IMG/VR virus record: IMGVR_UViG_3300030110_001330
Coordinates: 1-21,411 of that record
DNA from: a virus
Length of the DNA stretch: 21,411 bases
Strand: one strand, 5' to 3'
Position numbers and translations under genes: made by a program
Shown here: positions 2,479 through 19,823 of the stretch, in pieces
Numbering within the stretch: the stretch's first letter is position 1
How the letters are laid out: each line of letters starts with the position of its first letter
The notes under the pieces: generated by a model
What the model was told of the DNA's origin: nothing
Database searches by the model: none
Seen by the model: only the letters and a program-made list of their open reading frames with translations

Positions 2479-2482
2479 ATTA

Positions 2483-5400: not shown

Positions 5401-6475
5401 CTTCTCTTTGTTTTATCTCTACATCATCTAACTTTCCTCCAAGTGGTCGAACTAATTTTTGAACAGATTGTTCTAAAGATCTTACAATATAACCAGCTTC
5501 TGATAAGGAAGCTCTTTGCTCACCAATCATTTTTCTTTTTGCATTGAAACCCATCGCTGTATCGTCTCCTCTTGGACGAAGTCTAGCTAATACATGTTTA
5601 TCAAATGCACGAAGAATATTATTTTTATTAAATTGAAAACCTTGTTCTAGTTTTAAAGTTTCTGCAACTTTTCTACCTGTTGGAAGTTTAGTCACTGGAT
5701 CTATTTCATCAACCATTCTTACAACTTCATCGGCTGATCCAGTTGATCTGGTTAACACACCTTTCAACGCAGGAACTGCTTTTGAAAAACTAAATTTTAT
5801 TGCAGGCATTAAAGCTTTTTCAAACAAACCAAAACCAAGAGCTCCTTCTAAACCAAACTTAAATCTATTTTCTAGTTTTCTTATTGCATCTCTTCGACCA
5901 GACTCTCCTTGATTTTCTCTTGTTTGAGTTATTCCAAACCCCATTGCATCTCCAACTGTTCCTAAATCTTCAGTTGCTGCCGCTAGTTCTGCTCCACCAA
6001 CTGCTGCCATTCTAGTTGTTGTAGGTAGCATTTTAGCAGTTCTACCCAAGGTTCCTAAATTTTTAGCTTTTACTAACGCATTAGCTCCTTTTAAAGCAAT
6101 ACCACCCGGCACACCAAGTTGTGTTAAAATTTCTGTTACTGACCCTGTCCATCTATCATCAGCTAAATCTTCCATGCCACTTAAAAAATTATTATCATCA
6201 AAAGCTTTTTCAACTTTTTTTGTTAATTGTGTATTTAAACCTAAGTCAACTAATGTAGTACCAAGAGTTGTAATACCTTCTGTGGCTTTACCTAATCCTG
6301 AAATAACACCTGCTCCCGCAGATTTTATAAGACCTGTTTTTTCTAATCCTATTTTTTTATAAAAAACATTTTTATCTACATTAGAGTAAAATTTACTGTG
6401 TAGTTTATCCGCTAGTTCACTATCCGATATGTTACTGTATTGAGGATATTTTTTTCTAATTTCATCTATATTCAT
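2483..6475 (-). CDS. Large internal virion / DNA ejection-type protein, 1330 residues
   Basis: The largest gene of the window. The N-terminus (about residues 8-33, KKYPQYSNISDSELADKL) is a short helical motif found at the start of many phage internal virion or DNA-transfer proteins. Gly/Ala-rich, weakly hydrophobic stretches follow (for example residues 52-80 and 115-175). The rest is a long, mostly helical body rich in Lys, Asn and Phe. Its length is close to that of T7 gp16 (about 1,320 residues), a core protein ejected into the cell envelope with the genome, but I see no lytic transglycosylase motif, so the likeness is in size and context. It overlaps the upstream gene by one base (TAATG) and has no strong ribosome binding site, so it is probably translationally coupled. 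The structural role is likely; the precise function is not known. Confidence 0.72.
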   Translation of the reverse strand: MNIDEIRKKYPQYSNISDSELADKLHSKFYSNVDKNVFYKKIGLEKTGLIKSAGAGVISGLGKATEGITTLGTTLVDLGLNTQLTKKVEKAFDDNNFLSGMEDLADDRWTGSVTEILTQLGVPGGIALKGANALVKAKNLGTLGRTAKMLPTTTRMAAVGGAELAAATEDLGTVGDAMGFGITQTRENQGESGRRDAIRKLENRFKFGLEGALGFGLFEKALMPAIKFSFSKAVPALKGVLTRSTGSADEVVRMVDEIDPVTKLPTGRKVAETLKLEQGFQFNKNNILRAFDKHVLARLRPRGDDTAMGFNAKRKMIGEQRASLSEAGYIVRSLEQSVQKLVRPLGGKLDDVEIKQREEIMENIYDYLTAPKNAKDATKVPKELLEQVNEVRSYVDNLSGKLKENPLAIAASDSFVRTVAANVGEYLTRSYRTFGSETKKDWFDKLYNTDKGKEIIERAKIFLAEKDPSAYGGTVIGTGNNRRFVPGSSAQGKAMDAEIKAIVEANEMGGLGNELVRLKAVDDAVFKTRQQVPKEIRELLGEIKDPSVQLLETSTKINNFLSSSKYYQKLADDGLDKYFFNKSTVSQGGQNFTTQIKTDLWNPLNGKYTTPEIAANIERLSSISQKPGMLSNFYNGFLLAPKAIIQESKTTLSPITHFRNVSSALFFSGINGNLFNPSRFISEAAKSYKITKSIVKGELETQAGRKLFKTDSEYKEALKQYMEMQRLGIVNTSARLGDLKNLIDDMTTGIENISSEGTMFNVLKRFNEKTGLKRLREGARTFYSAEDDFYKIQNYFAEQSKYRTAFDKAYKTSPTNFARQYGDEAKDKYGLTDLTDEVQYNQFIKEEAADIVRNNIPNYDYVSPFIKELRKAPLGNFISFPAEILRTGINTITRGAKEMGDKNLRSIGRQRLLGVGLFGIGSGKIVEETAQFMTGVSNETLNSLREFLPKWSQNSTLIPIKQDGQIYYIDYSHSNAYDYLTRPLRAAMNGFNDGFANEQGALQAIESAAFEASKELLQPFLAESIITQFYGDVLVRGGQTRDGVRLWNPTDSTGDKVFKTMAELVKRASPGSMNQLYRTYLSGVGSVQKYNRGYKPVNEALGILGFRIQDPFIEQGIQFKMSDNKKNSENSVAYFNKTARDGSSTPQEIAKAYQEANERKKKGDQILFKQLKAAENLGLSKPFIIKKLGERFSKTETTRIINNKAVPFRISDFIKRQIMNNASIRNQPNPLPLINGLTSGIFVNFATQDLFENPDSLFDRPLEIDLREEDRTPNVVTPSFSGAYGAGDLAIPEVPLSMTTPPAGTISQTDRSQLAKSGDIDITEAIVNRG

Positions 6476-7539
6476 TACATAATACCAAGTGGATCACCCG
6501 TTGTATTTGTATTTGATTCACCTTTTTTGGAAGAAGAAGGTTGTGTCTGTCCTGAAATAGCAGACCACATTCGTTCAGCCATACTCAAAGCTTGGTTTTC
6601 ATCATAAACTTGCATGGTTAAAGGATCTTGTGTTTGCATTAATTGAGGAATGATACTAGCAAAAAATTCTTTTTTACTTGTTGTTCCCCCTGCTTTTGCC
6701 ATATTAATTAAATCCTCTTGAGGTATTGTTAGTTCCCCCTCTTTATCTGTAAACATAGTTTTTAATGTAGCTAAATTCTTTTGAAAAGTTGTACCATCTG
6801 TGTCACCCGCTCTGTCTAACGCAGCTTCTTGTGCTTCAATACCAGATTCAATAGCGGCCATTTTAATTTTATCTGCTCTATCTTTAGCTGCCATACCTAT
6901 TGCGGTAAAAGTTTTTAGCGGATCTTTTGCGGAACGAGCAATTTTATCCATGAGATTACCACCTCTAGCACTAGCTAAATTTAAACCAAATTCTGTTAAT
7001 GCTGCGAATCCACCACTCTTTACTTGTTCTTTATCACTACCTAAATATTTATCAAACAAATCCATTCTCTCTTTAATGAAATCGTCTAAATCACCTTTTT
7101 TAATTTTATTATCCAAGTCAGTAGCGTCATCCTTTTTCTTTTTTTTAATTTTTTTATCACCCTCGCTTGCAAATAATCCTGGCTGTCTATCAGATGGTGG
7201 TCTTTGTGTTTCTTTTTTTTGATCTTCAACACTTTGTTCAGCACTATCTGTTAAAGCGTCATAGGCTAGCATACCTCCATATCCAGCGGCACTTTGCCCT
7301 ACTATATTTTTAATAGACGGTTTAAATAATCCTGGTCTTGATCTTGGAAGAACTGGACCAATGCCTGAAGTAGGTGTTCTAGCTCCAGTGCCTAAAAAAT
7401 AACTTTTTATATTACTTGGTTTAACAATACCTTTTGCACCTCTTCCAAGAGCCATAGCACCTCTAACAGCATAAGGAGCAGCCATTGTAGCACCTCTTAA
7501 AGCTAACGCACCTAAACCATAAGCAATTGGTAAAACCAT
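6475..7539 (-). CDS. Putative internal virion protein with hydrophobic N-terminus
   Basis: A 354-residue protein. Its first 35 or so residues are hydrophobic and Gly/Ala-rich with scattered Arg (VLPIAYGLGALALRG). A Pro/Gly linker follows, then a lysine-rich patch (GDKKIKKKKKDD, about residues 128-139) and a helical C-terminal half. No enzyme motif is visible. I place the start at ATG 7539, which overlaps the preceding TGA stop (TGATG) and lies 6 bases from GGAGG. A TTG one codon earlier (7542) is open but only 3 bases from that site. It sits between two other ejection-type genes in one operon, which suggests an internal or core virion protein. It resembles no named family that I can identify with confidence. 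Confidence 0.68.
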   Translation of the reverse strand: MVLPIAYGLGALALRGATMAAPYAVRGAMALGRGAKGIVKPSNIKSYFLGTGARTPTSGIGPVLPRSRPGLFKPSIKNIVGQSAAGYGGMLAYDALTDSAEQSVEDQKKETQRPPSDRQPGLFASEGDKKIKKKKKDDATDLDNKIKKGDLDDFIKERMDLFDKYLGSDKEQVKSGGFAALTEFGLNLASARGGNLMDKIARSAKDPLKTFTAIGMAAKDRADKIKMAAIESGIEAQEAALDRAGDTDGTTFQKNLATLKTMFTDKEGELTIPQEDLINMAKAGGTTSKKEFFASIIPQLMQTQDPLTMQVYDENQALSMAERMWSAISGQTQPSSSKKGESNTNTTGDPLGIM

Positions 7540-8564
7540 CAACTACCTCCGAATAACCCTGATAAGCCACTTGCACCTTGACCAAATTGACCAAGAGCTC
7601 CCACTCCTGCAATACCAAGACCAAGTGCTTGAGCAAATGGATTAGTTTGTGGTTGTTGAGTGTAACTAATTGATCCACTTGGTACACCTCGTAGTATATC
7701 ACTAGCAAATCCAAGTCTATTAAATGGTTCACGTTGTGCCATCAACTGTTGTTGTCTTTGAGCTTCTAGCATTCCTTGACCTATTTGTTGCTGCATACCA
7801 CCTACACCTAGTAGTGATTGAATATCTCCTTGACCTAATTGTTGACCAAGTGCACCAAGACCAGCTTGAGTTTTACCAAGATCACCAAGACCTTGTCCTG
7901 CTTGACCAAGTGTCTGCGCTGCTTGTAATTGTCTTCTTTGTTGTGACTCTTGAGCACCCATTGCTGCTTGTTGAGCTTGTTGATAGTTACGTGACATATC
8001 TTCAAAAATACGTCGTGATTTAATGTCTGCTAAATTTTTACCAAGCTCTGCTTCTTGAACACCCATACGTGAGCCTCCAAAAGCACCTACCTTTTGTGCT
8101 TGAGAAGCTAAACCTTGTTGAGCAATCTGCGCTTGTTTATCATATTCAGCTAATGCTTGCTGTGTAACTTGTTGTTGATACGGATCCATGAACGCTTGTG
8201 CTGAAGCTGGATTGTATGCTTGTGTTGCACCAAGTGCTTGAGCAATACCACCTGTTAAAGCACCTCCTCCAAGAGCTGCACTACCCATACCTTGTTGTAA
8301 AGATGGTGCATAAGCACCTACTTGTTGTGATGCTAATCCAAAAGCTCGTTGTTGTTCTGGAGTGAAGCCTGCAAATTGAAACTTTGGTATAGCTTGAGCA
8401 ATACCTGCTCTACCAAACTTACGTAATTGAAAAGCTTCATCTGTTTCACCTTCTTTTTTTACAGCGTTTGGATCTCCAAATACGGAAGCAAGTAATTGTT
8501 CTGTTCTCTTTTCAATGTATGGCGGTTGAGCCTGTACCTGTGTTATTGTATCGCCTTCAGCCAT
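7539..8564 (-). CDS. Gln/Ala/Gly-rich internal virion (ejection) protein
   Basis: A 341-residue low-complexity protein rich in Gln, Ala and Gly. Residues about 160-185 contain GAFGGSRMGVQEAELGKNLA followed by a helical Q/R-rich stretch. This arrangement (a glycine turn with Ser-Arg, then a long amphipathic helix) recurs in phage internal core or DNA-ejection proteins of the T7 gp14 or P22 ejection type. The C-terminus is Gly-rich and moderately hydrophobic (QALGLGIAGVGALGQFG). The ATG overlaps the stop of the upstream gene by one base (TAATG), and a GGAGAC lies about 10 bases before it. Its place as second gene of the operon and its composition support a virion role. The assignment to ejection proteins is by resemblance, not by a catalytic signature. 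Confidence 0.66.
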   Translation of the reverse strand: MAEGDTITQVQAQPPYIEKRTEQLLASVFGDPNAVKKEGETDEAFQLRKFGRAGIAQAIPKFQFAGFTPEQQRAFGLASQQVGAYAPSLQQGMGSAALGGGALTGGIAQALGATQAYNPASAQAFMDPYQQQVTQQALAEYDKQAQIAQQGLASQAQKVGAFGGSRMGVQEAELGKNLADIKSRRIFEDMSRNYQQAQQAAMGAQESQQRRQLQAAQTLGQAGQGLGDLGKTQAGLGALGQQLGQGDIQSLLGVGGMQQQIGQGMLEAQRQQQLMAQREPFNRLGFASDILRGVPSGSISYTQQPQTNPFAQALGLGIAGVGALGQFGQGASGLSGLFGGS

Positions 8565-9418
8565 TATCTTTTGTCTCCATATTTATCTTGTAAACTATAA
8601 AGGAATTTTGATCCTCTGTCTCTAGTATCTTGTTTACCTTTACCACCCATTGCTCTGCCAAGTCCTCTTACAGTTCTTGAATTAATAACAAACTCACCAT
8701 CACTTAACATTGCTGGTATATCATCACTGATCTCGGTTCCAGGTCCTGCGATCTTACCATTCTTACGAGGAAAACCACCTTGTCTTAAACCCAAAGTTTT
8801 TAAACCATTTATTTGTCCACCCATGGCTCTACGTGTTAAATTAGGTTCATATTGAGAGAAAGGAACCAATTCAACTCCACCTATAGGTGCATCGCCTATA
8901 TTAGCAAAGCCTGGTACGGTGCCATATACATCTTCATAAGGTGTTGATTTCTTTTCTTCTTCTTTACTAGCAAGAAGTCCAGTTAATCCTGCGATAGTTC
9001 CTGCAGTTTTTAAAGGATTAGCTTTTGCAAAATTTAATATTGATCCAAGAACACTTGGACTTTTTACTTGTCCTTTCATTATAGCATCTTTAAGTGCAAT
9101 TCTATTAGCAATTGGATTACTACCTGTGGTAGCACCAAGAATGTTTTGTGGTACTGCTGTTCCTGTTGCAGCCGTTCTACCAAGTAGCCCACCCAATCCT
9201 TGACCAGCTTGAAGACCACCAAATTTACTAAGAGCTCCACCTGTTAATCCAGATAATGCGGCAAATTTAAGAGCATCTTTTGGGCTCTTGCCTGCAACTA
9301 GACTACCGAGACCACCGCCCAAAGCTGAACCCAACATAGGTCCACCATATAAAAAGCCTAGTCCTGCGCCGATAATGGGAGCTGCTTTTTTGGCAGCTTT
9401 AAAAATCTTCTTTAGCAT
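8564..9418 (-). CDS. Membrane-active-looking virion protein with Gly-zipper segments
   Basis: First gene of the minus-strand operon, 284 residues from ATG 9418. The N-terminus (MLKKIFKAAKKAAPIIGAGL) is a cationic amphipathic helix, followed by Gly-zipper-like hydrophobic segments (GGPMLGSALGGGLGSLVAG, about 25-43; LSGLTGGALSKFGGL, about 55-69). The C-terminal part has DDIPAMLSDGEFVINS, a motif seen in many phage virion-associated proteins, and a basic end. An upstream in-frame ATG at 9526 would add 36 residues, but I reject it: that stretch lies inside the promoter and has no ribosome binding site, whereas AAAAGGAGA (9421-9429) directly precedes 9418. A role in membrane penetration during genome delivery is a reasonable inference from the composition and the operon. 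Confidence 0.7.
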   Translation of the reverse strand: MLKKIFKAAKKAAPIIGAGLGFLYGGPMLGSALGGGLGSLVAGKSPKDALKFAALSGLTGGALSKFGGLQAGQGLGGLLGRTAATGTAVPQNILGATTGSNPIANRIALKDAIMKGQVKSPSVLGSILNFAKANPLKTAGTIAGLTGLLASKEEEKKSTPYEDVYGTVPGFANIGDAPIGGVELVPFSQYEPNLTRRAMGGQINGLKTLGLRQGGFPRKNGKIAGPGTEISDDIPAMLSDGEFVINSRTVRGLGRAMGGKGKQDTRDRGSKFLYSLQDKYGDKR

Positions 9419-9421
9419 GTT

Positions 9422-9470
9422 CTCCTTTTGCAAATCATGATTGTTGTATAATGCAAGGAGGCTGACCTTG
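9422..9470 (-). promoter_or_regulatory. Leader with two alternative hairpins around the ribosome binding site
   Basis: In the transcript of the minus-strand operon, CTCCTTGCA (9460-9452) can pair with TGCAAAAGGAG (9432-9422). The nine pairs, with a two-base bulge, would hide the Shine-Dalgarno sequence of the first gene. The CCTTG part of the first arm (9458-9454) can instead pair with CAAGG just upstream (9470-9466, seven-base loop), which would free the site. The two folds exclude each other. No known riboswitch consensus is recognised and no folding energy was calculated. Confidence 0.35.
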
Positions 9471-9491
9471 TAATTAAGCCAAGTATTTAAT

Positions 9492-9516
9492 CCTATATTT
9501 ATAGGCAAATATTTGC
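9492..9516. promoter_or_regulatory. Overlapping palindromes, candidate operator
   Basis: Two perfect inverted repeats share one base: CCTATA-TT-TATAGG (9492-9505) and GCAAATATTTGC (9505-9516). The first covers the -10 hexamer of the minus-strand promoter and the second fills most of its spacer. The placement is what one expects for a repressor or activator site able to control both divergent operons, but no regulator is known from this window. AT-rich DNA yields short palindromes by chance. Confidence 0.35.
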
Positions 9517-9526
9517 TATATGACAA
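9498..9526 (-). promoter_or_regulatory. Sigma-70-type promoter for the minus-strand virion operon
   Basis: Read on the minus strand, TTGTCA (9526-9521) and TATAAA (9503-9498) are separated by exactly 17 bases. Each hexamer differs from the bacterial consensus at one position. The start of transcription would fall near 9490, giving a leader of about 72 bases before the ATG at 9418. The spacer contains the 12-base palindrome GCAAATATTTGC. It is the only match of this quality I found in the window. Confidence 0.6.
9514..9522 (+). promoter_or_regulatory. Possible extended -10 promoter for the plus-strand operon
   Basis: TGCTATATG fits an extended -10 element (TGn followed by a 4/6 match to TATAAT). 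Transcription would begin near 9529, about 28 bases before the first plus-strand ATG at 9557, with AAAGGGA (9546-9552) as ribosome binding site. No good -35 lies 16-18 bases upstream. It overlaps the minus-strand promoter, so the two would compete. Confidence 0.28.
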
Positions 9527-9556: not shown

Positions 9557-10219
9557 ATGTCAACTAAAGTAGATTTCCATGCTATCAGACCATTTGGTCC
9601 AACAATATTACAAGGAAAATTACCTGATACTTTAATTAAAGTTTTAGATGATAGAGCAACAGAGTTATTAGATAATGAAAAATTATCAAAAAAATATGAT
9701 CACTCTATGAATTTAGCTGGTAATGTTCAAAAAGAAATTCGTTATCCTCAAGAAGATCTTGAAAGTAAAAACTTTCAACCATTAATTGGTGCATTAGGTG
9801 AAATAGTTAAACAGTATATATCTATACCTCCTGCTAGTGATACTATATCACCAGCCTTTGTTGGTAGAATGGTTATTGAATCTATGTGGGTCGTGAGCCA
9901 ATGGTCGGGAGACTTTAATCCTTTTCATATACACCAAGGAGAGTTATCTGGTGTTATTTATTTACGTGTGCCTCCTAGTCTTAAAGACGAATACGCAAAA
10001 GAAGATCACTATCCTTGTGTAGGTGATATTGTTTGGCATGCTGGTCAAGCTGCTACATTTAGCGGTCATAAACATCAGGCAACACCAGAGGTAGGCGCAA
10101 TATATCTTTTTCCTTCTTGGCTTTCACATGGTGTATATCCATTTAGAACACCAAATGAGGAGAGAAGATCAGTGTCTTTTAATTTACATTTAAAGAAAAA
10201 GGATCCTATTAATGATTAA
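9557..10219 (+). CDS. 2OG-Fe(II) oxygenase-like protein, Oxy_5 (PF13759) type
   Basis: A 220-residue protein with the C-terminal signature of the PF13759-type putative 2-oxoglutarate/Fe(II) oxygenases. NPFHIHQGELSGVIYL gives His124 and His126, FPSWLSHGVYPF gives the distal His191, and EERRSVSFNLH supplies the Arg203/204 expected to bind 2-oxoglutarate. The proximal motif reads His-x-His rather than His-x-Asp, as is usual in this subgroup. An insertion of about 35 residues (140-175, with several His) lies between the LSGVIYL strand and the FPSW strand. It is the first gene of the plus-strand operon, with AAAGGGA in front of its ATG, and overlaps the next gene by 8 bases. Such enzymes usually hydroxylate proteins, small molecules or nucleic acids; the substrate is unknown here. 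Confidence 0.8.
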   Translation: MSTKVDFHAIRPFGPTILQGKLPDTLIKVLDDRATELLDNEKLSKKYDHSMNLAGNVQKEIRYPQEDLESKNFQPLIGALGEIVKQYISIPPASDTISPAFVGRMVIESMWVVSQWSGDFNPFHIHQGELSGVIYLRVPPSLKDEYAKEDHYPCVGDIVWHAGQAATFSGHKHQATPEVGAIYLFPSWLSHGVYPFRTPNEERRSVSFNLHLKKKDPIND

Positions 10220-10676
10220 AACATATGATGATGTTTTACCAGAACCTCTTTTAGATTTTATTAGATTTGAAGTTGATAATCTTTCTTTTAGAAAACACGC
10301 CTCCACCCCAGAACTGTTAGATAAAGGGATTTTCTTTTTTGCCTCAGTAGAAGAAAATTTATTATCTCATAGGTTTTTATTTAATATTTTTTGTGAGAAA
10401 TATAACTTACCTAACAAAGATGTTAAAAGGTCCTACACTAATTGTTACCCTCCTTTAACAAGTGGAGAGTTTCATGAAGACGACGGTGATCAAACTTTTT
10501 TATTTTTTCCCGATAAAACAGAAAATAAAAAAGGAGGAACTTCGTTTTTAGATGGAACTACAATTGAGTACAAAACAAATAGATTAATTATTTTTGATGC
10601 AAGTTTACCACATAAAGCTGATAAAAATGAATCAAATCAAATGAGACACTCAATAGCATGGAAAACTTTGATATAA
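10212..10676 (+). CDS. 2OG-Fe(II) oxygenase-like protein (HxD type), short
   Basis: A 154-residue protein with a complete set of facial-triad residues. SGEFHEDDG gives His88-x-Asp90, LPHKAD gives the distal His134, and MRHSIAWK gives Arg145, the expected 2-oxoglutarate anchor. The strand-turn pattern between them (QTFLFFP, GGTSFLDG, NRLIIFDASLPH) is that of the double-stranded beta-helix of prolyl-4-hydroxylase-like enzymes. It is clearly different from the protein before it, so this is not a recent duplication. AAGGA at about 10199-10203 serves as ribosome binding site, and the gene overlaps its neighbour by 8 bases. Substrate unknown; enzyme activity is inferred from motif completeness only. 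Confidence 0.76.
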   Translation: MIKTYDDVLPEPLLDFIRFEVDNLSFRKHASTPELLDKGIFFFASVEENLLSHRFLFNIFCEKYNLPNKDVKRSYTNCYPPLTSGEFHEDDGDQTFLFFPDKTENKKGGTSFLDGTTIEYKTNRLIIFDASLPHKADKNESNQMRHSIAWKTLI

Positions 10677-10939
10677 ATAAAACACCCATGGTTCGTGTGA
10701 CGTGGCTCGATGCCCGGGATACAGAGACAGGTTGGCTAGATATAAAAGAAGTTCTTAATGCACCGTTGGCCGTGTGCCAAGAAGTAGGATGGATGATTAC
10801 AAATAATGATCAAAGAATAGTTATTATGAGATCTTACAGTAAAGATAAAGATGATATTACAGGTGGTGGTGCTATCGCTATACCTAAAGATTGGGTAAAA
10901 AAAATAGAATATTTAAAAGTAGATTATGCAACACAATAA
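10658..10939 (+). CDS. Small conserved-looking phage protein of unknown function
   Basis: A 93-residue soluble protein without a recognised domain. From residue 11 on it looks well folded (MVRVTWLDARDTETGWLD, then EVGWMITNNDQRIVIMRS), ending in GAIAIPKDWVKKIEYL. The alternating strands suggest a small beta-barrel or SH3-like fold, which is only an impression. Two starts are possible: ATG 10658, overlapping the upstream gene by 19 bases, and ATG 10688, 11 bases after its stop. Neither has a strong Shine-Dalgarno sequence, and the later one begins directly at the conserved-looking part. It lies between two oxygenase genes and overlaps the next by 14 bases, so it is cotranscribed with them. Confidence 0.66.
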   Translation: MENFDINKTPMVRVTWLDARDTETGWLDIKEVLNAPLAVCQEVGWMITNNDQRIVIMRSYSKDKDDITGGGAIAIPKDWVKKIEYLKVDYATQ

Positions 10940-11438
10940 AAACACAAAGTTTGTTATGTACGTTGATGATTTTTTAGGAGAGGATACTTTAAAATCATTA
11001 CAGGATACTGTTACAAACTTAAAGTATCAGGAAGTAAAAAACCCAGAGGGTCAACTTTATGGTATGAGACACACTTTTGATAAAAGCATTCACGATGATC
11101 CGTTATTAAAGTTAATTAAACAGTATTTTTTTCCACATAGAAATCTTGAACCAATATCAGTGAGTGCTCATCTAAGAGAAAATAAAAAAGAACCTTTATT
11201 TCATACTGATGATGACAAAGAAAATGTAGCAAACTTTCTTTTGTTTGTAAAAGGTGAGTCTCTTCTTAATAATGGCACAGGGTTTATGCGTGATAATAAA
11301 CTGTCTTCACATATAGGCTTTGTAGAAAATAGGGCTTTGTTTTTTAATGGCATGAAAATACCACATTCAGATCTACAATCTTTTGGGGATAGCTCTAATA
11401 GATATACACTTAACATTTTTTATAAGGAAAATAGTTGA
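10926..11438 (+). CDS. 2OG-Fe(II) oxygenase-like protein (HxD type)
   Basis: A 170-residue protein, third of the oxygenase-like genes. LFHTDDD gives His93-x-Asp95, KIPHSD gives the distal His147, and SSNRYTLNIFY gives Arg159. Between them are the strand NFLLFVKG and the strand ending in ALFFNG, as in the jelly-roll core of the superfamily. N-terminal residues 9-30 (FVMYVDDFLGEDTLKSL) resemble the usual helical start of 2OG hydroxylases. The Fe and cosubstrate residues are all present, so it may be active. It is more similar in layout to the second oxygenase than to the first. The substrate cannot be deduced. Confidence 0.75.
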   Translation: MQHNKNTKFVMYVDDFLGEDTLKSLQDTVTNLKYQEVKNPEGQLYGMRHTFDKSIHDDPLLKLIKQYFFPHRNLEPISVSAHLRENKKEPLFHTDDDKENVANFLLFVKGESLLNNGTGFMRDNKLSSHIGFVENRALFFNGMKIPHSDLQSFGDSSNRYTLNIFYKENS

Positions 11439-12193
11439 AAATAAGTTTTACGAGTGCGTGGGCTGATCACATTATTCATCCAGTTCCTGTAAAAAAAGTT
11501 GTTCCTAATTGGTATAAAGAACTACAATTAATATTAGAACAGGATGTTTTTGAACAAACCATAAAAAAATGTCAACCAGTTTTAGATAGTATTACCATGG
11601 GTTACGCTATTTTATCTCCTTGTGATTTAATATTTTCTAAAGATAAAACTTTTACTGAAAATAAAGAACCTGTATTTGAAATAAATGTGCATGTGGCTAA
11701 CACAAAAACTTTTGAAAACTTACACAAAAAAGAAATAAAGTTTGATATGAATATCGGAGTAGGTGATCATAAAATATCACAAATAAGTCCATCAATGATT
11801 TATCCAGATGAGTTATCAATAGCCTTTAAGTTCTTAAATCCTTGGATGATTAAAACACCTCCAGGTTATAGTTGTCTTTTTACCTCTCCTTTTAACACAG
11901 AAAAACAAGATATTAGAATAGTTACAGGAATAGTAGACACAGATAATCATAATGCATTTGTAAACTTTCCATTTTTTTTAAGAGATTGGGATCATAATAA
12001 AAACAGACAAAAAATAGTAAAAAAAGGAACGCCTATATCTTTAGTGTTTCCTTTTAAAAGAGATACTTGGGTAATGAGTGTTATTAAAGATGTTCATTTA
12101 AAAGAGAAAACAAGTAAGTGGGATTGGAATTATTTTAGCACTGTCTTAAACACTTACAAAAATAAAGTATGGACAAAAAAGAGTTATAAATGA
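11435..12193 (+). CDS. DUF6065-like conserved phage protein
   Basis: A 252-residue protein whose conserved-looking pieces (VPNWYKEL at 24-31, TIKKCQPVLDSITMGY at 42-57, NPWMIKTPPGYSCLFTSPFN at 135-154, GIVDTD at 165-170, KKGTPISLVFPFKRD at 196-210) match what I remember of the DUF6065 family of phage and bacterial proteins. That assignment comes from memory, not from a search. The C-terminal half looks like a cupin or jelly-roll fold. It has no clear facial triad, so I do not call it an oxygenase. The start is TTG at 11435 with AAGGAAA (11424-11430) in front, overlapping the upstream gene by 4 bases. Being placed between oxygenases and a glycosyltransferase suggests a shared modification pathway, which is inference. 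Confidence 0.68.
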   Translation: MKISFTSAWADHIIHPVPVKKVVPNWYKELQLILEQDVFEQTIKKCQPVLDSITMGYAILSPCDLIFSKDKTFTENKEPVFEINVHVANTKTFENLHKKEIKFDMNIGVGDHKISQISPSMIYPDELSIAFKFLNPWMIKTPPGYSCLFTSPFNTEKQDIRIVTGIVDTDNHNAFVNFPFFLRDWDHNKNRQKIVKKGTPISLVFPFKRDTWVMSVIKDVHLKEKTSKWDWNYFSTVLNTYKNKVWTKKSYK

Positions 12194-12975
12194 CAAAAAT
12201 ATTTATTGGAACACCATGTTATGGAGGAATGATAACAGCAGATTATTTTAAAAGCTGCTTACAATTAACGGCTTTAGCCGCTACCAAAAAAATAGAATTA
12301 CAATTTGGTACTATTGGTAATGAATCTCTTGTAACAAGAGCTCGTAATACATTAGTGCAGTTATTTATGGATGAACCTAAATACACTCATCTTTTATTTA
12401 TTGATGCTGATATTGCTTTTAATCCTGAAGCAGTATTTCGTATGTTAGATTTAGATGAAGATGTGGTAACAGGCGTATATCCACGAAAGACCATTGATTG
12501 GACAAAAGTAAAAAGAAAAGTAAATGAAAATCCAAATGTATCGGAAGAAGAACTTCATGCATCGTCTTTACAATATAATTTAAATATAACTAATCCTAAA
12601 AAAATTTCTGTAGTAAAAGGTTTTATAGAAGTATTAGATGGGGCTACTGGTTTTATGTTAATAAAAAGAAATGTTTTTAAAAAAATGGCTTTGGCTTATC
12701 CTCATTTACGATTTAAATCAGATCAACATTTAGGAGATCCACATGATAAAACATTTGGTTATCACGATACCTCTGATTGGAATTATGCTTTTTTTGATAC
12801 AATGATAGAGCCTGATACAAAAAGATATTTATCAGAAGATTATGCTTTTTGTCGTTTGTGGCAGAAAATAGGTGGTAAAATATACGCTGATATTGCTAGT
12901 GGCATGACTCACTATGGTAATTACAGCTTTAGAGGTAACGTAGGCACTCAATTCTTGCCACAAAACAATAAATAA
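12190..12975 (+). CDS. GT-A-type glycosyltransferase
   Basis: A 261-residue protein with the features of a GT-A glycosyltransferase. The N-terminal strand IFIGTPCYGG is followed by SLVTRARNTLVQLF (47-59) and then LLFIDADIAF with the metal-binding Asp-Ala-Asp at 72-74. Later come LDGATGFMLIKR (149-160), SEDYAFCRLW (215-224, the probable catalytic acidic region) and a C-terminal MTHYGN with His241, a usual third metal ligand. The order and spacing resemble the Anp1-like or single-domain phage glycosyltransferases. It would move a sugar from a nucleotide-sugar donor to an unknown acceptor such as a virion protein, surface glycan or modified base. The ATG overlaps the preceding stop (ATGA), so it is in one operon with the oxygenases. 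Confidence 0.82.
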   Translation: MTKIFIGTPCYGGMITADYFKSCLQLTALAATKKIELQFGTIGNESLVTRARNTLVQLFMDEPKYTHLLFIDADIAFNPEAVFRMLDLDEDVVTGVYPRKTIDWTKVKRKVNENPNVSEEELHASSLQYNLNITNPKKISVVKGFIEVLDGATGFMLIKRNVFKKMALAYPHLRFKSDQHLGDPHDKTFGYHDTSDWNYAFFDTMIEPDTKRYLSEDYAFCRLWQKIGGKIYADIASGMTHYGNYSFRGNVGTQFLPQNNK

Positions 12976-12991
12976 TTTAGTATACTCCGAC

Positions 12992-14836
12992 ATGAAATTA
13001 GTCGATTTAAAATTCCAACCAGGTATAGATAAACAAGACACCGCTTATTCAGCAGGAGATCAACGTAAATATGTTGACTCTGACTTTGTAAGATTTCATT
13101 ACGGAAAACCTGAAAGATGGAAAGGTTGGTCATATCTACCAAATCCTAACAAAACTATTGTGGGCGTGGTCCGTGATACGCATAGCTGGATTGGTCTAGA
13201 TGGAACCAGATACCTTGCTTTAGGTACAGACAGAAAACTATATTTATACTCTGAAGGTAAGGTCTACGATATAACACCTATAAGAGAAACAGCATCATTA
13301 ACCAATCCTTTCACAACAAATGGTACAACAACAGTTACAGTTACAGATTCTAGTCATGGTGCTTTAGTAGGTGATTTTGTCACTTTTGATTCTTTTAGTT
13401 CTATTGATGGTTTGGACATGAATAATGAATTTGAAGTTATTACAGTCCCAACCGCAAATACTTATACAGTAACTCATACAAGCGCAGCCTCTGGATCAAC
13501 TTCAGGTGGCGGTGGATCAGGTAACGCTAATTATCAAATTAATGTAGGACCAGCCACCTCAACATTTGGGTATGGATGGAGCACTTTAACTTGGAATTTA
13601 AGTACTTGGAATACACCAAGGTCTTCTTCAAATGTTGTTGTAGATGCAAGAAATTGGTCTTTAGACAATTTTGGTGAAGATTTAATTGCTACTGTTTTAA
13701 ATGGTGGAACATTTATAAAAGATATTTCAGGAACAATCACTGCAAGAGCAACAGCTTTATCAAATGCTCCTACGGCATCAAGATTTAGTTTGGTATCAAC
13801 TGATACAAGACATTTAATGATGTTTGGAACGGAGACAACCATAGGAAATACAGCTACTCAAGATGATCTATTATTTAGATTTTCTGATCGGGAAGATGCT
13901 ACAGACTATACACCAGTAGCAACAAACGAAGCTGGCTCATTACGTATATCTGATGGTTCTAGAATAGTAGGGGCTGTTAAATCATCAGGTCAAATACTTG
14001 TTTGGACAGATACATCTCTTCATGGTGTTCAGTTTGTTGGTACACCTTTTACTTTTGGTCTTAGACAACTTGGAGCTAACTGTGGTTTAATATCACAACA
14101 CGCTGCTATTGAAATAAACGGCCGCTCTTATTGGATGTCAGACAATGCTTTTTACATGTATGATGGTGTTGTTAAAAAAATGCCTTGTTCAGTACAAGAC
14201 TACGTATTTGATGATTTAAGTTATACTAATAAACAAGACATTGCTTGTGGCTTGAATACAGCTTTTAATGAAATTATTTGGTATTATCCTTCGGCAAATG
14301 CTTCACAAATAGATAGAGCTGTAGCTTATAATTATTTGGAAAATACTTGGTACACTATTAATCTTAGTAGAACAACATGGCTTGGTGCTTATGTATATGA
14401 ACAGCCAATTGCTACAGAATATGGTGCGAGTTTAACGGCAAATGTATCAACTATACTAGGTCTAACAGCGGGAGCTTCTTATATTTATGAACATGAGTCA
14501 GGTAATAATCAAGCAGATGGCACAGCTATTTCTGCTTTTTTAACAACAGGATCTGTTGAAATTGCTGATGGTGATGAGCTTATGTCGGTCAGTAGATTAG
14601 TTCCAGACTTTGATAATCTTGCTAATACAATGACAGCTACTTTAACGCTTGAACAATATCCACAATCTGCAGCTAATGTAACTACAACAGGCAGTATTAC
14701 TAGCACCACAGAGAAAATTGATGTAAGAGGTAGAGGAAGAGCAGTTAAGATTAAATATCAAACCAATACAGTTAATGACACAGCTTGGAGACTTGGATCA
14801 ACAAAATTACAACTTAGACCAGATGGTAGACGATGA
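12992..14836 (+). CDS. Large tail/stabilisation-type virion protein with beta-propeller-like body
   Basis: A 614-residue protein. Its N-terminus (residues 1-48, DLKFQPGIDKQDTAYSAGD, then SDFVRFHYGKPERWKGWSYL with Trp-rich end) is typical of marine phage virion proteins annotated as tail or DNA-stabilisation proteins. Repeated strand pairs with WIGLDGTRYLALGTD, GGTFIKDI, GQILVWTD and YWMSDNAFYMYDG suggest a beta-propeller like that of P22 gp10. Residues about 105-180 look like an inserted beta domain ending in a Gly/Ser linker (GSTSGGGGSGN). C-terminal residues about 520-614 are a separate beta-sandwich-like part. It is probably a tail hub or gatekeeper. No Shine-Dalgarno sequence is obvious before the ATG. 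The structural role is likely; the exact position in the tail is inferred. Confidence 0.74.
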   Translation: MKLVDLKFQPGIDKQDTAYSAGDQRKYVDSDFVRFHYGKPERWKGWSYLPNPNKTIVGVVRDTHSWIGLDGTRYLALGTDRKLYLYSEGKVYDITPIRETASLTNPFTTNGTTTVTVTDSSHGALVGDFVTFDSFSSIDGLDMNNEFEVITVPTANTYTVTHTSAASGSTSGGGGSGNANYQINVGPATSTFGYGWSTLTWNLSTWNTPRSSSNVVVDARNWSLDNFGEDLIATVLNGGTFIKDISGTITARATALSNAPTASRFSLVSTDTRHLMMFGTETTIGNTATQDDLLFRFSDREDATDYTPVATNEAGSLRISDGSRIVGAVKSSGQILVWTDTSLHGVQFVGTPFTFGLRQLGANCGLISQHAAIEINGRSYWMSDNAFYMYDGVVKKMPCSVQDYVFDDLSYTNKQDIACGLNTAFNEIIWYYPSANASQIDRAVAYNYLENTWYTINLSRTTWLGAYVYEQPIATEYGASLTANVSTILGLTAGASYIYEHESGNNQADGTAISAFLTTGSVEIADGDELMSVSRLVPDFDNLANTMTATLTLEQYPQSAANVTTTGSITSTTEKIDVRGRGRAVKIKYQTNTVNDTAWRLGSTKLQLRPDGRR

Positions 14837-15630
14837 TTGACGCACCTTTATATGACAATCCTTTAGCTGGTGGTATTAGTGCTACACCTGGTATTGGTGG
14901 TGGAACCGTATCAGACACGGCAGATAGAACTATTCAAGATCCATATGAAATTGGTGGTGGTGGACAATTAGGCCTTGCATCAGCTATTGATGGGAGTGGT
15001 GGCGGTGCACTTTTTTTACCCGATGAAAACAGACCAAGATCCGAAGAAGATATTAGAAACAGATATGAACAAGCAAAAGCACAAGCGGCTGAATCGAGAA
15101 GAAATGGATTCTTAGGTCAAGTAATATTGCCCGGTGAAATGAAATATGAAGATTTTAAAAATATGCAAAATTCTTTTTTCTTAAAAAGAAATCCAAACAT
15201 ACCAGAATCTGCTTACGATAATTTTGATTTAACAAATGTTGGTGGATTTGATAATCCAACAATGGATGCATCTATGAAAGGTTTACCAGAAACAAATGAA
15301 CCTCCTATGTTTGCTACACCAGGCTTACCGCCTCAACAAGAAGAAATACCTGGTGCAAGAGATCTCATAGAAACTATAGGAACTGTAAAAGGCCCTGAAG
15401 ACACACTGTTTGATGTAGCAAATAACCCTTACAACAGAGTTGGACAACAGCTCATGGGTCCTAATCAAGATGAGATGCTTGGCACATTAAAAAATATTGA
15501 ACAAGGTATTGCGAGTTTAGTTGGAAATTATGGACAAGATTTTAATTCAAACAAATCATCTAACTACGGTGATTTTGATAACTTTGGTATAGGTTCTTTC
15601 TTCCCGCCTTACGGAGGAATGTATGGCTAA
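14833..15630 (+). CDS. Gly-rich protein of unknown function, probably virion-associated
   Basis: A 265-residue acidic, Gly/Pro/Asn-rich protein with no recognised domain. The N-terminal third is glycine-rich and probably flexible (GIGGGTV, EIGGGGQLG, GSGGGALFLP). A short helical segment (about 70-93) and a mixed central part follow, and the end is aromatic and glycine-rich (FGIGSFFPPYGGMYG). The ATG overlaps the stop of the tail protein upstream (ATGA). The stop overlaps a 55-residue gene by 8 bases, so it is in a tight tail-gene cluster. It could be a tail accessory or linker protein, but composition is the only support. Confidence 0.7.
   Translation: MIDAPLYDNPLAGGISATPGIGGGTVSDTADRTIQDPYEIGGGGQLGLASAIDGSGGGALFLPDENRPRSEEDIRNRYEQAKAQAAESRRNGFLGQVILPGEMKYEDFKNMQNSFFLKRNPNIPESAYDNFDLTNVGGFDNPTMDASMKGLPETNEPPMFATPGLPPQQEEIPGARDLIETIGTVKGPEDTLFDVANNPYNRVGQQLMGPNQDEMLGTLKNIEQGIASLVGNYGQDFNSNKSSNYGDFDNFGIGSFFPPYGGMYG
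15613..15617 (+). promoter_or_regulatory. Ribosome binding site that marks the 55-residue gene
   Basis: GGAGG lies 5 bases before ATG 15623, inside the end of the preceding gene. It is among the strongest sites in the plus-strand operon and supports the short gene that follows. Confidence 0.7.
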
Positions 15631-15790
15631 ACTAACAATAACACGATTACCAAACGCAACGCCAGAATACAGTCCCAATCAGTTTGATCAAATGATTGCA
15701 TTACTAGATCAAATTATTCTTTTACTTAACACAAACTACCAACAAGATCTAAAAGAAGAATCGCAGTCGGAGGCTTTTTTCCTTGGCTAA
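15623..15790 (+). CDS. Small conserved-looking virion-cluster protein, 55 residues
   Basis: A short gene that length filters miss. Reading from ATG 15623 gives 55 residues beginning MAKLTITRLPNATPEY, followed by a helix (NQFDQMIALLDQIILLLN, about 19-36) and ending KEESQSEAFFLG. The opening 'ITRLPxATPEY' and the acidic end followed by aromatic residues resemble small phage proteins placed next to tail genes; that comes from memory. Strong support is GGAGG at 15613-15617 and 8-base overlaps with the genes on both sides, a pattern repeated through this operon. It has no transmembrane segment. Function unknown; a small virion or assembly protein is the simplest guess. Confidence 0.74.
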   Translation: MAKLTITRLPNATPEYSPNQFDQMIALLDQIILLLNTNYQQDLKEESQSEAFFLG

Positions 15791-16145
15791 TGTATTTAAA
15801 AGCGCAATGGTGGATATTACCACAACGAATTTAACAACTGTTATAACAGTTCCTACAGCTGATGCTGGTGCATCACCACCTGTTCCGCCTACTACGGATG
15901 TAGTAAAATCTCTTTTAGTTTGCAATGACTCTGGTTCAACAACTTTGGTTGATGTTGAAGTTGTCCGAGGAGCTGCAACTTTTGAATTATTTAAAGCAAA
16001 GAGTGTTGCTACAAACACAACAACAGAATTACTGACACAACCTTTAGTTCTGCAAGAAAGTGATATTCTTAAAGTTCAAGCCAATGCTGCCAATCAGGTG
16101 CACATTATAGCTAGTTTTATGGAGGTCACGAAAGGACAACTCTGA
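15783..16145 (+). CDS. Putative small virion beta-sandwich protein
   Basis: A 120-residue protein made almost entirely of predicted beta strands. The strand MVDITTTNLTTVITVPTADA is followed by a proline-rich loop (GASPPVPPTTD), then VKSLLVCNDSG, TTLVDVEVVRG, FELFKAKSVA, PLVLQESDILKVQAN and VHIIASFMEV. This layout (regular short strands, few charged residues) is common in marine phage head or tail decoration proteins. The start is TTG 15783, 9 bases after CGGAGG (15768-15773) and overlapping the previous stop by 8 bases. No better ATG exists in frame near it. A virion role is likely from position and fold type; the exact part is unknown. Confidence 0.68.
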   Translation: MANVFKSAMVDITTTNLTTVITVPTADAGASPPVPPTTDVVKSLLVCNDSGSTTLVDVEVVRGAATFELFKAKSVATNTTTELLTQPLVLQESDILKVQANAANQVHIIASFMEVTKGQL

Positions 16146-16738
16146 TTAATTTACATTCTCTATTTATTACTCCCGTATTTTCACTACAACTTAAAGGCCA
16201 TGAACATCTTATTGATAATATATATCAATTAAAAGAAAAAGATGAGATGGGTATGCCTCGATCTAATGTCGGTGGTTGGCATAGTCACGATGAAATATAT
16301 AGTATTAAAAAATTTAGACCTTTAGTTGGTGACATTCTTAAATATGCTAAAGATTGTTTTAATCACATGGATGTACAAGATCATTACATTCCTGAGATGA
16401 CTGGTATGTGGGGAATGATAAATCCACCCGGATCACGAAACAATGTACATACGCATCCATATAACTACTTGTCTGGTGTATTTTATCTTAAAGCTCCTAA
16501 AAAATGTGGAAATATTGTGTTTCTAGAGCCTAAACCACAGTCAGAGGTACTATCACCACCAAAAACAGAAAAAGCCTCTATACACCTCGCTCATAGCGTA
16601 CAATGGGAACCTATTGAAAATTCCTTGATTTTTTTTCCTTCATGGTTACAACATGAAGTACAAACAAATAGTTCTAATGATGATAGAGTTATTATTAGTT
16701 TTAACATAAATTGGAGAAAAGAAGATGCCGATAGTTGA
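16142..16738 (+). CDS. 2OG-Fe(II) oxygenase-like protein, Oxy_5 (PF13759) type, non-AUG start
   Basis: The C-terminal part has the PF13759 signature: VHTHPYNYLSGVFYL with His-x-His, FFPSWLQHEV with the distal His, and DDRVIISFNINW with the Arg (His68, His70, His136 and Arg147 counted from ATG 16247). The first in-frame ATG is 16247, but the frame is open upstream to a TAG at 16112. The extension reads INLHSLFITPVFSLQLKGHE, the N-terminal strand expected of this family, leading into the SNVGGWHS motif. No ATG, GTG or TTG lies in that stretch. CTG 16142 (sharing bases with the previous stop, CTGA) or ATT 16145 would give 198 or 197 residues, with AAAGGA at 16131-16136 as ribosome binding site. 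The exact start is uncertain; the family is secure. Confidence 0.78.
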   Translation: MINLHSLFITPVFSLQLKGHEHLIDNIYQLKEKDEMGMPRSNVGGWHSHDEIYSIKKFRPLVGDILKYAKDCFNHMDVQDHYIPEMTGMWGMINPPGSRNNVHTHPYNYLSGVFYLKAPKKCGNIVFLEPKPQSEVLSPPKTEKASIHLAHSVQWEPIENSLIFFPSWLQHEVQTNSSNDDRVIISFNINWRKEDADS

Positions 16739-16976
16739 ACCTGCTGAATTACTAGGACATATCACAACAGAAGATGGAAGAAGAATTCCACACTATAAAG
16801 TAAAAACTGAAACTACAATTACTCATGCTGACACTGGTGCTGAGTATGAATCTGAAACTGCAGCACAAGCTGATGTTGATAATCCAGGAACATCAACAAC
16901 TGCTGAAAAAATAAGAAGAGATGTAAAAGTATTTGCTCCTTCTTTAGCAGATATGTTAGGTGAAACTCCTGAGTAA
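16725..16976 (+). CDS. Small acidic protein of unknown function
   Basis: An 83-residue soluble acidic protein that I do not recognise. Its middle (THADTGAEYESETAAQADVD, about 34-53) is Ala/Glu/Asp-rich and preceded by a strand-like part (HYKVKTETTITH). The end is IRRDVKVFAPSLADMLGETP. GGAGAAAAGAAG lies just before the ATG, and the gene overlaps the oxygenase by 14 bases. It is the last gene of the plus-strand operon; its stop codon touches the stop of the opposite-strand gene with no base between. Proteins of this size and composition are common at the edges of phage tail gene clusters. No function is assigned. Confidence 0.66.
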   Translation: MPIVEPAELLGHITTEDGRRIPHYKVKTETTITHADTGAEYESETAAQADVDNPGTSTTAEKIRRDVKVFAPSLADMLGETPE

Positions 16977-17210
16977 TTAAGCGCTACAAGCCTCACACTC
17001 TACATCAGAATCTAAACCCGTTACTATAACTTGTGTATCAGAGTTATGCGGTTGACCTTGAATAGCATGTATATGTGGACCATTTTTATGTTCTAACAGT
17101 TCTTTCTGTAATTTTTCATTGTCTCTTTCTACTGCTAATAAACGTTCATGATAGCGACTCACCTTATCAGCAAGGGTAGCTATAGCCTTCAATACTTCTT
17201 GATTTTCCAT
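16977..17210 (-). CDS. Small coiled-coil protein with His cluster and C-terminal CxxC
   Basis: A 77-residue protein. Residues 5-42 form a heptad-patterned charged helix (LADKVSRYHERLLAVERD) and so probably a coiled coil. It is followed by a His-rich linker (GPHIHAIQGQPH, His46, His48, His55) and a C-terminal tail ending ECEACSA with Cys72-x-x-Cys75. The His and Cys residues could bind a metal, though nothing proves it. A good ribosome binding site (CAGGAG, 7 bases before the ATG) supports the start. It is the last gene of the right-hand minus-strand block, 101 bases beyond the oxygenase. I recognise no family. Confidence 0.6.
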   Translation of the reverse strand: MENQEVLKAIATLADKVSRYHERLLAVERDNEKLQKELLEHKNGPHIHAIQGQPHNSDTQVIVTGLDSDVECEACSA

Positions 17211-17292
17211 AATATCTCCTGATTTATAATTTTTGGGTGAGATCTAATTTAAACATGTGTACAGAATAGATCAAGTAATCTTTTTATAATTG

Positions 17293-17310
17293 TTTTCTTG
17301 ACAAAGAAAA
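17293..17310 (-). other. Perfect 7-bp inverted repeat just after the oxygenase stop
   Basis: TTTTCTT and AAGAAAA (17293-17299 and 17304-17310) flank a 4-base loop, starting 1 base after the stop of the minus-strand oxygenase gene. The stem is nearly all A-T pairs and no run of T follows in the reading direction, so it does not qualify as an intrinsic terminator. It could be a weak pause or mRNA 3' end structure. The rest of the 101-base gap to the next gene holds only that gene's ribosome binding site. Confidence 0.3.
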
Positions 17311-17311
17311 T

Positions 17312-17869
17312 TTATATGGATTTAGGTCCGTTTATAAAATAAGAGAGTGTTATTCTTTCTCCTTTAGTAACAGGAGTTACTTCATGATTAAGAAAAGATC
17401 TAAACAATATAGCGCTACCAGGTTTTTTAAAATTAGTTACTTCTTTATTAACAATTAAATCTCCACCTTCGTACTCATCTTCTGATAAATTTAAAAGAAA
17501 AGTTAATTTACAATCAGATATTGCGTCTCTAGATCTATCCATGTGCTCACCATAATGACCACGTATACTACTAGAGTAAACATTATATAATAAATTATCA
17601 TACATGTTTGGAGGAAAAGTTAATGCACCAAAAGTATAATGTGCAAAATGAAAAGCCAAGTGAATTAAACGATTATACTCCTCTGGCATTCTTAATAATT
17701 GTATATTTTTAGGTTTTATATTTTTTAAATAATCACCTTTTAAATCTTTTGCACCTTGATCTATTTCTTCAGTTGAATTAATATTACTTACAATAGTTTG
17801 ATTAAATTTTTTTATTAATTCAAGATCTAGTAATGGCTCTGACCAGGTTTGTAAATCTGTAAGTTTCAT
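17312..17869 (-). CDS. 2OG-Fe(II) oxygenase, prolyl-4-hydroxylase/PKHD-like
   Basis: A 185-residue protein with the clearest oxygenase signature in the window. YNVYSSSIRGHYGEHMDRSR carries His109-x-Asp111, and KLTFLLNLSEDEYEGGDLIV is the typical core strand pair with the Gly-Gly-Asp turn. GSAILFRSFLNHEVTPV gives the distal His162, and KGERITLSYFING gives Arg172. This order is that of the P4Hc/PiuC-like PKHD hydroxylases of bacteria and phages. The family usually hydroxylates protein or small-molecule substrates in the cytoplasm. No Shine-Dalgarno sequence precedes its ATG; instead a perfect A/T palindrome abuts it. It lies 27 bases downstream of a DGSGN-repeat protein, in the fibre block on the opposite strand from the other four oxygenases. 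Confidence 0.84.
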   Translation of the reverse strand: MKLTDLQTWSEPLLDLELIKKFNQTIVSNINSTEEIDQGAKDLKGDYLKNIKPKNIQLLRMPEEYNRLIHLAFHFAHYTFGALTFPPNMYDNLLYNVYSSSIRGHYGEHMDRSRDAISDCKLTFLLNLSEDEYEGGDLIVNKEVTNFKKPGSAILFRSFLNHEVTPVTKGERITLSYFINGPKSI

Positions 17870-17896: not shown

Positions 17897-18202
17897 TTAT
17901 TCGGCTGCTATTGCCCCGTGATCTCCGTTAACAAGAGCTGTGTATAAGTCTTTTCCATGCTGTTGGTCATCATCAGCCATTGCGGTAAAAGGCAACCAAT
18001 CTTGAGAACTATCGCCTAAATGTGACCATTTAGCTTCACATTCAATACCTTTAATATCATTTCCGCTACCATCTTTTTTAGTTTCCCAAACAAGATTTCC
18101 ACTACCATCCACTTCAGGATTTCCACTACCATCATTTTTTATTGTTTTCCAAGTTTTCCACTTTGGGTTTCTTATTGCTAGTAAAGTTGTATTAAAAGCC
18201 AT
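17897..18202 (-). CDS. DGSGN-repeat protein of unknown function
   Basis: A 101-residue acidic protein with three copies of DGSGN (residues 24-28, 32-36, 44-48) separated by short strands (PEV, LVWETKK). The spacing by multiples of four residues and the Asp/Gly/Asn content recall calcium-binding beta-turn repeats, but the series is too short to claim binding. The N-terminus (MAFNTTLLAIRNPKWKTWKT) and the C-terminus (WLPFTAMADDDQQHGKDLYT) are ordinary folded sequence. AAGGAG precedes the ATG. It sits between a fibre-like protein and an oxygenase, so it is probably a virion or fibre accessory protein. In PF-type family terms I cannot place it. Confidence 0.66.
   Translation of the reverse strand: MAFNTTLLAIRNPKWKTWKTIKNDGSGNPEVDGSGNLVWETKKDGSGNDIKGIECEAKWSHLGDSSQDWLPFTAMADDDQQHGKDLYTALVNGDHGAIAAE
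18059..18133 (-). repeat. Three 15-base direct repeats encoding DGSGN
   Basis: On the plus strand the unit ATTTCCACTACCATC occurs at 18095-18109 and 18119-18133, and with one change (G for A) at 18059-18073. The copies are 36 and 24 bases apart, so the frame is kept. Near identity at the third codon positions points to recent duplication rather than protein-level convergence. Confidence 0.7.
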
Positions 18203-18213
18203 TTATTTTCTCC

Positions 18214-19772: not shown

Positions 19773-19805
19773 CTAATCTCCTATATAATTTGTAATATTT
19801 AAATT

Positions 19806-19823
19806 AAAGTTTGTCAAAACTTT
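19806..19823 (-). other. Perfect 7-bp inverted repeat just after the large fibre stop
   Basis: AAAGTTT and AAACTTT (19806-19812 and 19817-19823) flank a 4-base loop and reach into the stop codon of the 492-residue fibre protein. As after the oxygenase at 17293-17310, no T run follows, so it is not a classic terminator. The same stretch holds TTGACA on the minus strand with a weak TACAAA 17 bases on, but a start there would fall on the ribosome binding site of the next gene. Confidence 0.3.

Follow-up and report, generated by a model that had tools for sequence, protein, structure and literature searches.

Why should a marine phage carry five different 2-oxoglutarate (2OG)-Fe(II) oxygenase-like genes, and on what would their products act? 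The question is raised by IMG/VR virus record IMGVR_UViG_3300030110_001330, in which these genes, here termed oxA to oxE, lie among genes for virion proteins and a glycosyltransferase. The window analysed (positions 1 to 21,411; 21,411 bases) is apparently a fragment and includes the end of a DNA polymerase gene. Each of the five encodes a 2OG-Fe(II) oxygenase-like protein with conserved residues that predict catalytic activity. We favour the reading, to which we give a probability of about 0.48, that they form part of a late, virion-linked modification module with tail or virion proteins as its putative substrates. Action on host proteins or metabolites ranks next, followed by an insertion hot spot and, last, DNA modification.

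A preliminary description of the window had proposed five oxygenase-like open reading frames, and all five are present; only the start of oxD needs correcting. They fall into three groups. The plus-strand genes oxA (9557..10219) and oxD (16145..16738) are of the PF13759 type, with an HxH motif, a distal His and a distal Arg; oxB (10212..10676) and oxC (10926..11438), also on the plus strand, are of the phrog_274 type with HxD; and oxE (17312..17869, minus strand) is a PF13640 protein with HxD and PKHD-type relatives. Against PF13759, oxA scores 67 bits (motif HIH..H..R; phrog_81, E = 6e-27) and oxD 82 bits (HTH..H..R), and oxE scores 47 bits against PF13640 (HMD..H..R), all over the curated Pfam cut-off, which is 27 bits for both families. 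By contrast, oxB (HED..H..R) stays under that cut-off at 22.3 bits for PF13759, and oxC (HTD..H..R) matches no Pfam oxygenase family. These two are assigned by their PHROG matches (phrog_274, E = 3.5e-18 and 4.6e-14, respectively), by invariant residues and by profile-profile comparison, which joins the oxygenase families (oxB with the oxA/oxD family, 1e-5; oxC with oxB, 1e-5). In pairwise BLASTP comparison of the five, oxA and oxD are the only pair with detectable similarity (27% identity, 8e-12), in line with the earlier view that at least three types are present rather than one duplicated gene.

The HxD or HxH motif and the distal His and Arg that had been noted in each protein were found in all five and are kept in relatives. 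Across the families the catalytic columns are 89–100% conserved: the metal triad at 95–100% and the distal Arg for 2-oxoglutarate at 89–100%. In the PF13759 family the values are 98% for HxH, 95% for the distal His and 89% for the Arg. The HxD, His and Arg columns are 100% conserved in the oxB and oxE families, as is the distal Arg in the oxC family, where H93, D95, H147 and R159 are invariant (27 sequences). By sequence, oxD and oxE match solved structures and may have a double-stranded beta-helix fold; oxB and oxC have profile links to the other oxygenases. The structures matched by oxD are the uncharacterized PF13759 proteins 3bvc (2.4e-16) and 2rg4 (2.2e-12; Roseovarius, Oceanicola), distant relatives that match it over its whole length and share its HxH motif and distal His and Arg. 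Since these solved proteins also have HxH, we regard the motif as typical of the family and not as a mark of inactivity. For oxE the matches were 3dkq (2.2e-5) and PiuC (9ghl, 0.03). Purifying selection on oxA, oxC and oxD (median ratio of nonsynonymous to synonymous substitution rates, dN/dS, of 0.157, 0.104 and 0.095) is similar to that on the glycosyltransferase (0.093) and the virion protein (0.092); the small conserved proteins p93 and g83 gave 0.132 and 0.103, and too few sequence pairs were available to estimate oxB and oxE.

The start of oxD had been placed at 16142, where there is no ATG, GTG or TTG; the codon there is an in-frame CTG, and the list of open reading frames used in the present analysis sets the beginning of the protein about 34 residues too far downstream. 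Across 46 loci (28 distinct sequences) the start of oxD falls right where g15, a small conserved protein (15783..16145, plus strand; phrog_1276, 1e-6), ends, with ATT in 24 sequences and ATC in 4. At this place contig L075 has ATG, as have three relatives in which another gene is inserted; the ATT is preceded by a Shine-Dalgarno-like AAAGGA. Thus oxD probably starts at a conserved AUU/AUC codon, ATT 16145 in the window, that overlaps the g15 stop codon. Initiation at CUG is also possible, because the in-frame CTG directly before the ATT is likewise invariant.

Relatives were surveyed in IMG/VR with at most 80 contigs for each anchor, the window's anchor being the gene for a virion structural ("stabilization") protein (12992..14836, plus strand; phrog_3287, 2.5e-78). 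Relatives of this gene occur in the annotated phages DSL-LC04, 023Pt_psg01, HTVC023P and HTVC027P, the closest by this protein (46%, 42%, 41% and 40% identity, respectively). Clades here follow the query that retrieved each contig, and the contigs are not independent. On this basis 2OG-like genes accounted for 27% of genes (241 of 884) in the 81 related loci of the window's own clade, against 12% (90 of 742) among HTVC023P-like phages and 0.7% (6 of 857) in the sister clade of freshwater, DSL-LC04-like phages. The density of oxygenases around the virion gene is far above chance, reaching ten in a single contig (L059) when the families f32 and f380 are counted in. In a co-occurrence survey of the kind that the preliminary description had suggested, the oxygenases recur in relatives, and the glycosyltransferase is found in 78 of the 81 loci.

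Position, too, is conserved. A 60-kb relative carries eight oxygenases recognised by hidden Markov models and a ninth (DUF6445), all at 8.9–18.6 kb, with none recognised elsewhere. In four annotated complete relatives, matches to phrog_81, phrog_274 and phrog_61 are confined to the tail region, that is, between the ejection-protein genes or the virion gene and the tail-fibre genes. Among the 30 loci that span island 1, one of two islands around the virion gene, an oxA-family oxygenase opens the island in 29, one gene preceding it in the other, and both the glycosyltransferase and p93 (10658..10939, plus strand; phrog_25889, 4e-12), the constant partner between oxA and the glycosyltransferase, are present in all 30. 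oxA and oxD are near-constant; the other oxygenases, including oxB, oxC and oxE, are swapped between relatives. Separately, p93 and a PF13759-type oxygenase lie 0.9–2.5 kb apart in the distant polymerase-anchored contigs L275, L278, L299 and L305.

This swapping raises the prospect that the region is an insertion hot spot without shared function, in which the oxygenases simply reflect how common such genes are among marine phages. The 30 loci of island 1 differ in gene order, with 13 arrangements, and DUF6065, sulfotransferase, split carbamoyltransferase and JmjC-type genes share the relatives' islands. Yet the cargo is heavily biased towards 2OG-like genes when compared with the sister clade, which has the same virion gene, and oxA, p93, the glycosyltransferase and oxD are near-constant. 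We consider a mere hot spot improbable. The sulfotransferase, split carbamoyltransferase and JmjC-type genes were seen at L032 2947-3777, L068 243-803 and 9347-10360, L089 727-1236, and L059 15270-15935.

The glycosyltransferase (12190..12975, plus strand) lies directly 5' of the virion gene, and its earlier designation as a GT-A enzyme agrees with a match to phrog_1574 (1e-44), a weaker one to the glycosyltransferase phrog_34859 (4.5e-4) and a D72xD74 motif that is invariant in 23 sequences. Its match to GT8 is under the cut-off (20 versus 24.3 bits), as are those to MGS and GT2. The profile's sole match in the PDB, with the DxD region aligned, was A197 (2c0n, 4e-4), a protein of the archaeal virus STIV; the likeness is distant. 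Overlaps of 4–19 bases run from oxA through the glycosyltransferase, followed by a 16-base gap to the virion gene on the same strand; the glycosyltransferase and the adjoining DUF6065 protein share one tightly overlapping operon with the virion protein gene. It had been suggested that hydroxylation and glycosylation act in succession. Four HTVC023P-like loci have the glycosyltransferase without any oxygenase in the region covered, and no such glycosyltransferase lies beside the oxygenase-like genes of DSL-LC04 (one gene) or 023Pt_psg01 (five genes). Because the two occur separately, an obligatory pathway of hydroxylation and then glycosylation is unsupported. Separable occurrence also rules out an obligate partnership between glycosyltransferase and oxygenase.

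A DUF6065-like neighbour had likewise been recognised, and PF19541 matches it over the cut-off (11435..12193, plus strand; 29.6 bits). The protein has conserved VDTD and PPGYS motifs. Its structural model is of low confidence (predicted local distance difference test score, pLDDT, 61), and the 50 Foldseek matches listed are all dUTPases, dCTP deaminases or a dUTPase partner (6h4c), the best at 7e-4; the fold is possibly dUTPase/dCTP-deaminase-like. Searches of the PDB with profiles of the DUF6065, oxC and f32 alignments gave nothing meaningful.

Such a fold would suit a system that hydroxylates and then glycosylates phage DNA in the manner of TET/JBP enzymes, the other branch of the initial proposal. 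DNA methyltransferase genes also occur in two relatives, of the C5-cytosine type in L336 and of the Dam type in L334, and the oxygenases of phage Syn9, which lie near repair genes, were interpreted as repair enzymes. The relatives' methyltransferases, however, sit with replication genes, apart from the oxygenases, which are placed among virion genes. Furthermore, no window oxygenase matches PF12851 (Tet_JBP), nor was PF12851 or PF18723 matched in the relatives searched, where no positive control responded, and one base would not need five different oxygenases. DNA modification is unlikely, and to us the least credible of the readings weighed.

The oxygenase content of relatives also varies with the tail. 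In all 14 loci that reach across island 2 and the tail genes, the gene set goes with one of three tail types: tf101/tf114 tails go with an OX41 gene or none, f31 tails with OX41 and f32 (5/5) plus others, and f105/f90 tails with OX2 and DUF6065 (4/4). The combination of f31, OX70, OX41 and f32 recurs in HTVC023P-like phages in another gene order. f31 is phrog_7759, a small protein whose gene lies beside those of the tail fibres. Of its 25 occurrences, 16 have an adjoining oxygenase; in the oxygenase-poor clade this holds for 3 of 9, two of these three (L091 and L092) being close relatives. Examples of f31 are found at L047 10464-10952, L006 6990-7505 and L005 25268-25621. One might imagine a tail-type-specific modification code, in which each tail-fibre type has its own hydroxylase set, with glycosyl, sulfo and carbamoyl transfer in reach; were this speculative and rather doubtful idea true, chemistry after translation, in place of sequence change or in addition to it, would diversify the phage's receptor-binding apparatus.

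Several relatives of these genes appear to be mislabelled. HTVC023P gp67 and its relatives (f32) belong to phrog_2954, which is labelled "ferrochelatase". f32 has no Pfam match, and hence none to a ferrochelatase profile, and the phrog_2954 profile had no match in 14 control genomes. Its members have an invariant HxD and a distal His, an Arg at the usual distal position not being evident. The matches listed in the PDB for the f32 model (pLDDT 81) are 2OG oxygenases and uncharacterized proteins of the same fold, with prolyl hydroxylases first (3.9e-9); no ferrochelatase fold is among the 50. We therefore predict from the model that the phrog_2954 "ferrochelatase" is itself a 2OG oxygenase. A heme-linked pairing with oxygenases was built on this label (PMC9599517), and phrog_2954 has been counted as ferrochelatase (PMC11561400); reassignment, if true, would remove the published heme interpretation and alter survey counts that use the label. 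Examples lie at L006 9302-9922, L008 9439-10095, and L038 14928-15545 and relatives. Two further labels are predicted to be questionable by the same kind of motif evidence: oxB and oxC are matched by phrog_274, whose label is "DNA endonuclease V", and a protein with an HTD..H..R motif is matched by phrog_1644 ("minor coat protein")/DUF6445. That protein (L333 10602-11333) looks like a further 2OG oxygenase.

How might the module work? The window has three main gene blocks: ejection and internal virion genes on the minus strand (1228-9526), a run on the plus strand (9557-16976) and, again on the minus strand, the tail-fibre genes (17897-21301). The first block, which bounds the oxygenase island, holds five genes for internal virion or DNA-ejection proteins (1228..9526), with matches to phrog_22602 (virion structural protein), phrog_4287 (DNA ejection protein) and tape-measure proteins and with two of the five unmatched. 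Further along the strand of oxA and the glycosyltransferase come g14 (14833..15630, plus strand), a variable protein after the virion gene that has no PHROG match and is present in some relatives only, then g15, oxD and, after oxD, g83 (16725..16976, plus strand), which is kept in relatives. oxE ends the tail-fibre strand, downstream of the four tail-fibre genes (17897-18202, 18214-18558, 18558-19772 and 19823-21301, minus strand), three of which have PHROG tail-fibre matches and all of which encode candidate substrates. We propose that the enzymes would be expressed late, together with the virion genes, and would draw Fe(II), O2 and 2-oxoglutarate from the host. The target of the near-constant oxA and oxD would be one that does not vary and is produced along with them; the simplest candidates are the adaptor, ejection or virion proteins of the adjoining genes. 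The swapped oxygenases would hydroxylate residues in the tail fibre or in small proteins accessory to it, each tail-fibre type thus being accompanied by a set of its own. Independently of the oxygenases, the glycosyltransferase may attach further groups to the virion or to glycans of the host surface, as may the sulfotransferase and carbamoyltransferase of relatives.

This proposal of a virion-directed module is consistent with myophage Mosig, in which an oxygenase cluster lies between tail-fibre and neck genes, and with the fact that the only solved relative of the glycosyltransferase profile is a viral protein. A number of points weigh against it. Substrate and late expression are presumed for the window phage, and activity is predicted from residues; the position may merely reflect a tolerant insertion site, and the tail-type link may be mere physical linkage. 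An oxygenase of P-SSM2 lies near recombination genes, and S-CREM1 has a run of eight oxygenases with a JmjC gene outside a virion cluster. Nor do the window proteins tested contain a Gly-X-Y run of at least four units, so that a collagen-like substrate is ruled out among them. Of the earlier suggestion that virion proteins or host surface molecules are modified, the tie to virion and tail genes held in relatives and makes this the best reading, while the substrate itself is what we infer.

A possible alternative, to which we give somewhat less credence, is that the oxygenases act late in infection on host targets (EF-Tu or other translation factors, ribosomal proteins, envelope or surface molecules) or metabolites, with the tail region as a tolerant cargo site. 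Among the nearest solved structures to f32 is a prolyl hydroxylase bound to EF-Tu (4j25, 4iw3), oxE resembles the PKHD-type PiuC, gene swapping is typical of cargo, and host iron transport rises in HTVC027P infection; published views, too, class such oxygenases as auxiliary metabolic genes. Free cargo, however, would not be expected to be confined to the tail interval across distant groups or linked to tail-fibre type, and two of the oxygenases hardly vary in position, with selection on them matching that on the virion gene in strength. We thus prefer tail and virion proteins as targets.

Such oxygenases are common in abundant marine phages and still unexplained. According to PMC9602691, no study has specifically addressed what they do in viruses, and a literature search by title found no experimental work on phage oxygenases or virion hydroxylation. 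Together, a conserved position, a near-constant pair and sets that follow tail type reduce the question to one that proteomics can test directly in cultured phages, HTVC023P and HTVC027P being grown on HTCC1062. The cluster type is already published for SAR11 pelagiphages and cyanophages (PMC9599517, PMC9602691, PMC9964418), whereas the window's clade is new and unusually dense. Cyanophage arrays reach 24 oxygenases in S-SCSM1 and 10 in S-CREM1 (PMC9602691, PMC9964418). Cyanomyoviruses and Mosig, in which the oxygenases adjoin genes labelled "ferrochelatase" and "endonuclease V", resemble the window in their many divergent PF13759 and PF13640 genes, but they have large T4-like genomes, while the window's nearest complete relatives are of about 60 kb. 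The HTVC023P-type pelagiphages, in which eight non-orthologous 2OG-Fe(II) genes lie close together and glycosyltransferases are also present (PMC9599517), come nearer. HTVC023P, HTVC027P and 023Pt_psg01 share with the window the virion anchor, the tail-region position, non-orthologous oxygenases and, in isolates, a glycosyltransferase, and the families f31, OX70, OX41 and f32 are common to both clades. With the window fragment as the basis of comparison, modules are shared, the virion proteins are about 40% identical and the gene order differs. The two islands around the virion gene, DUF6065, the near-constant oxA, p93, glycosyltransferase and oxD, and an oxygenase density of 27% versus 12% are the window clade's own.

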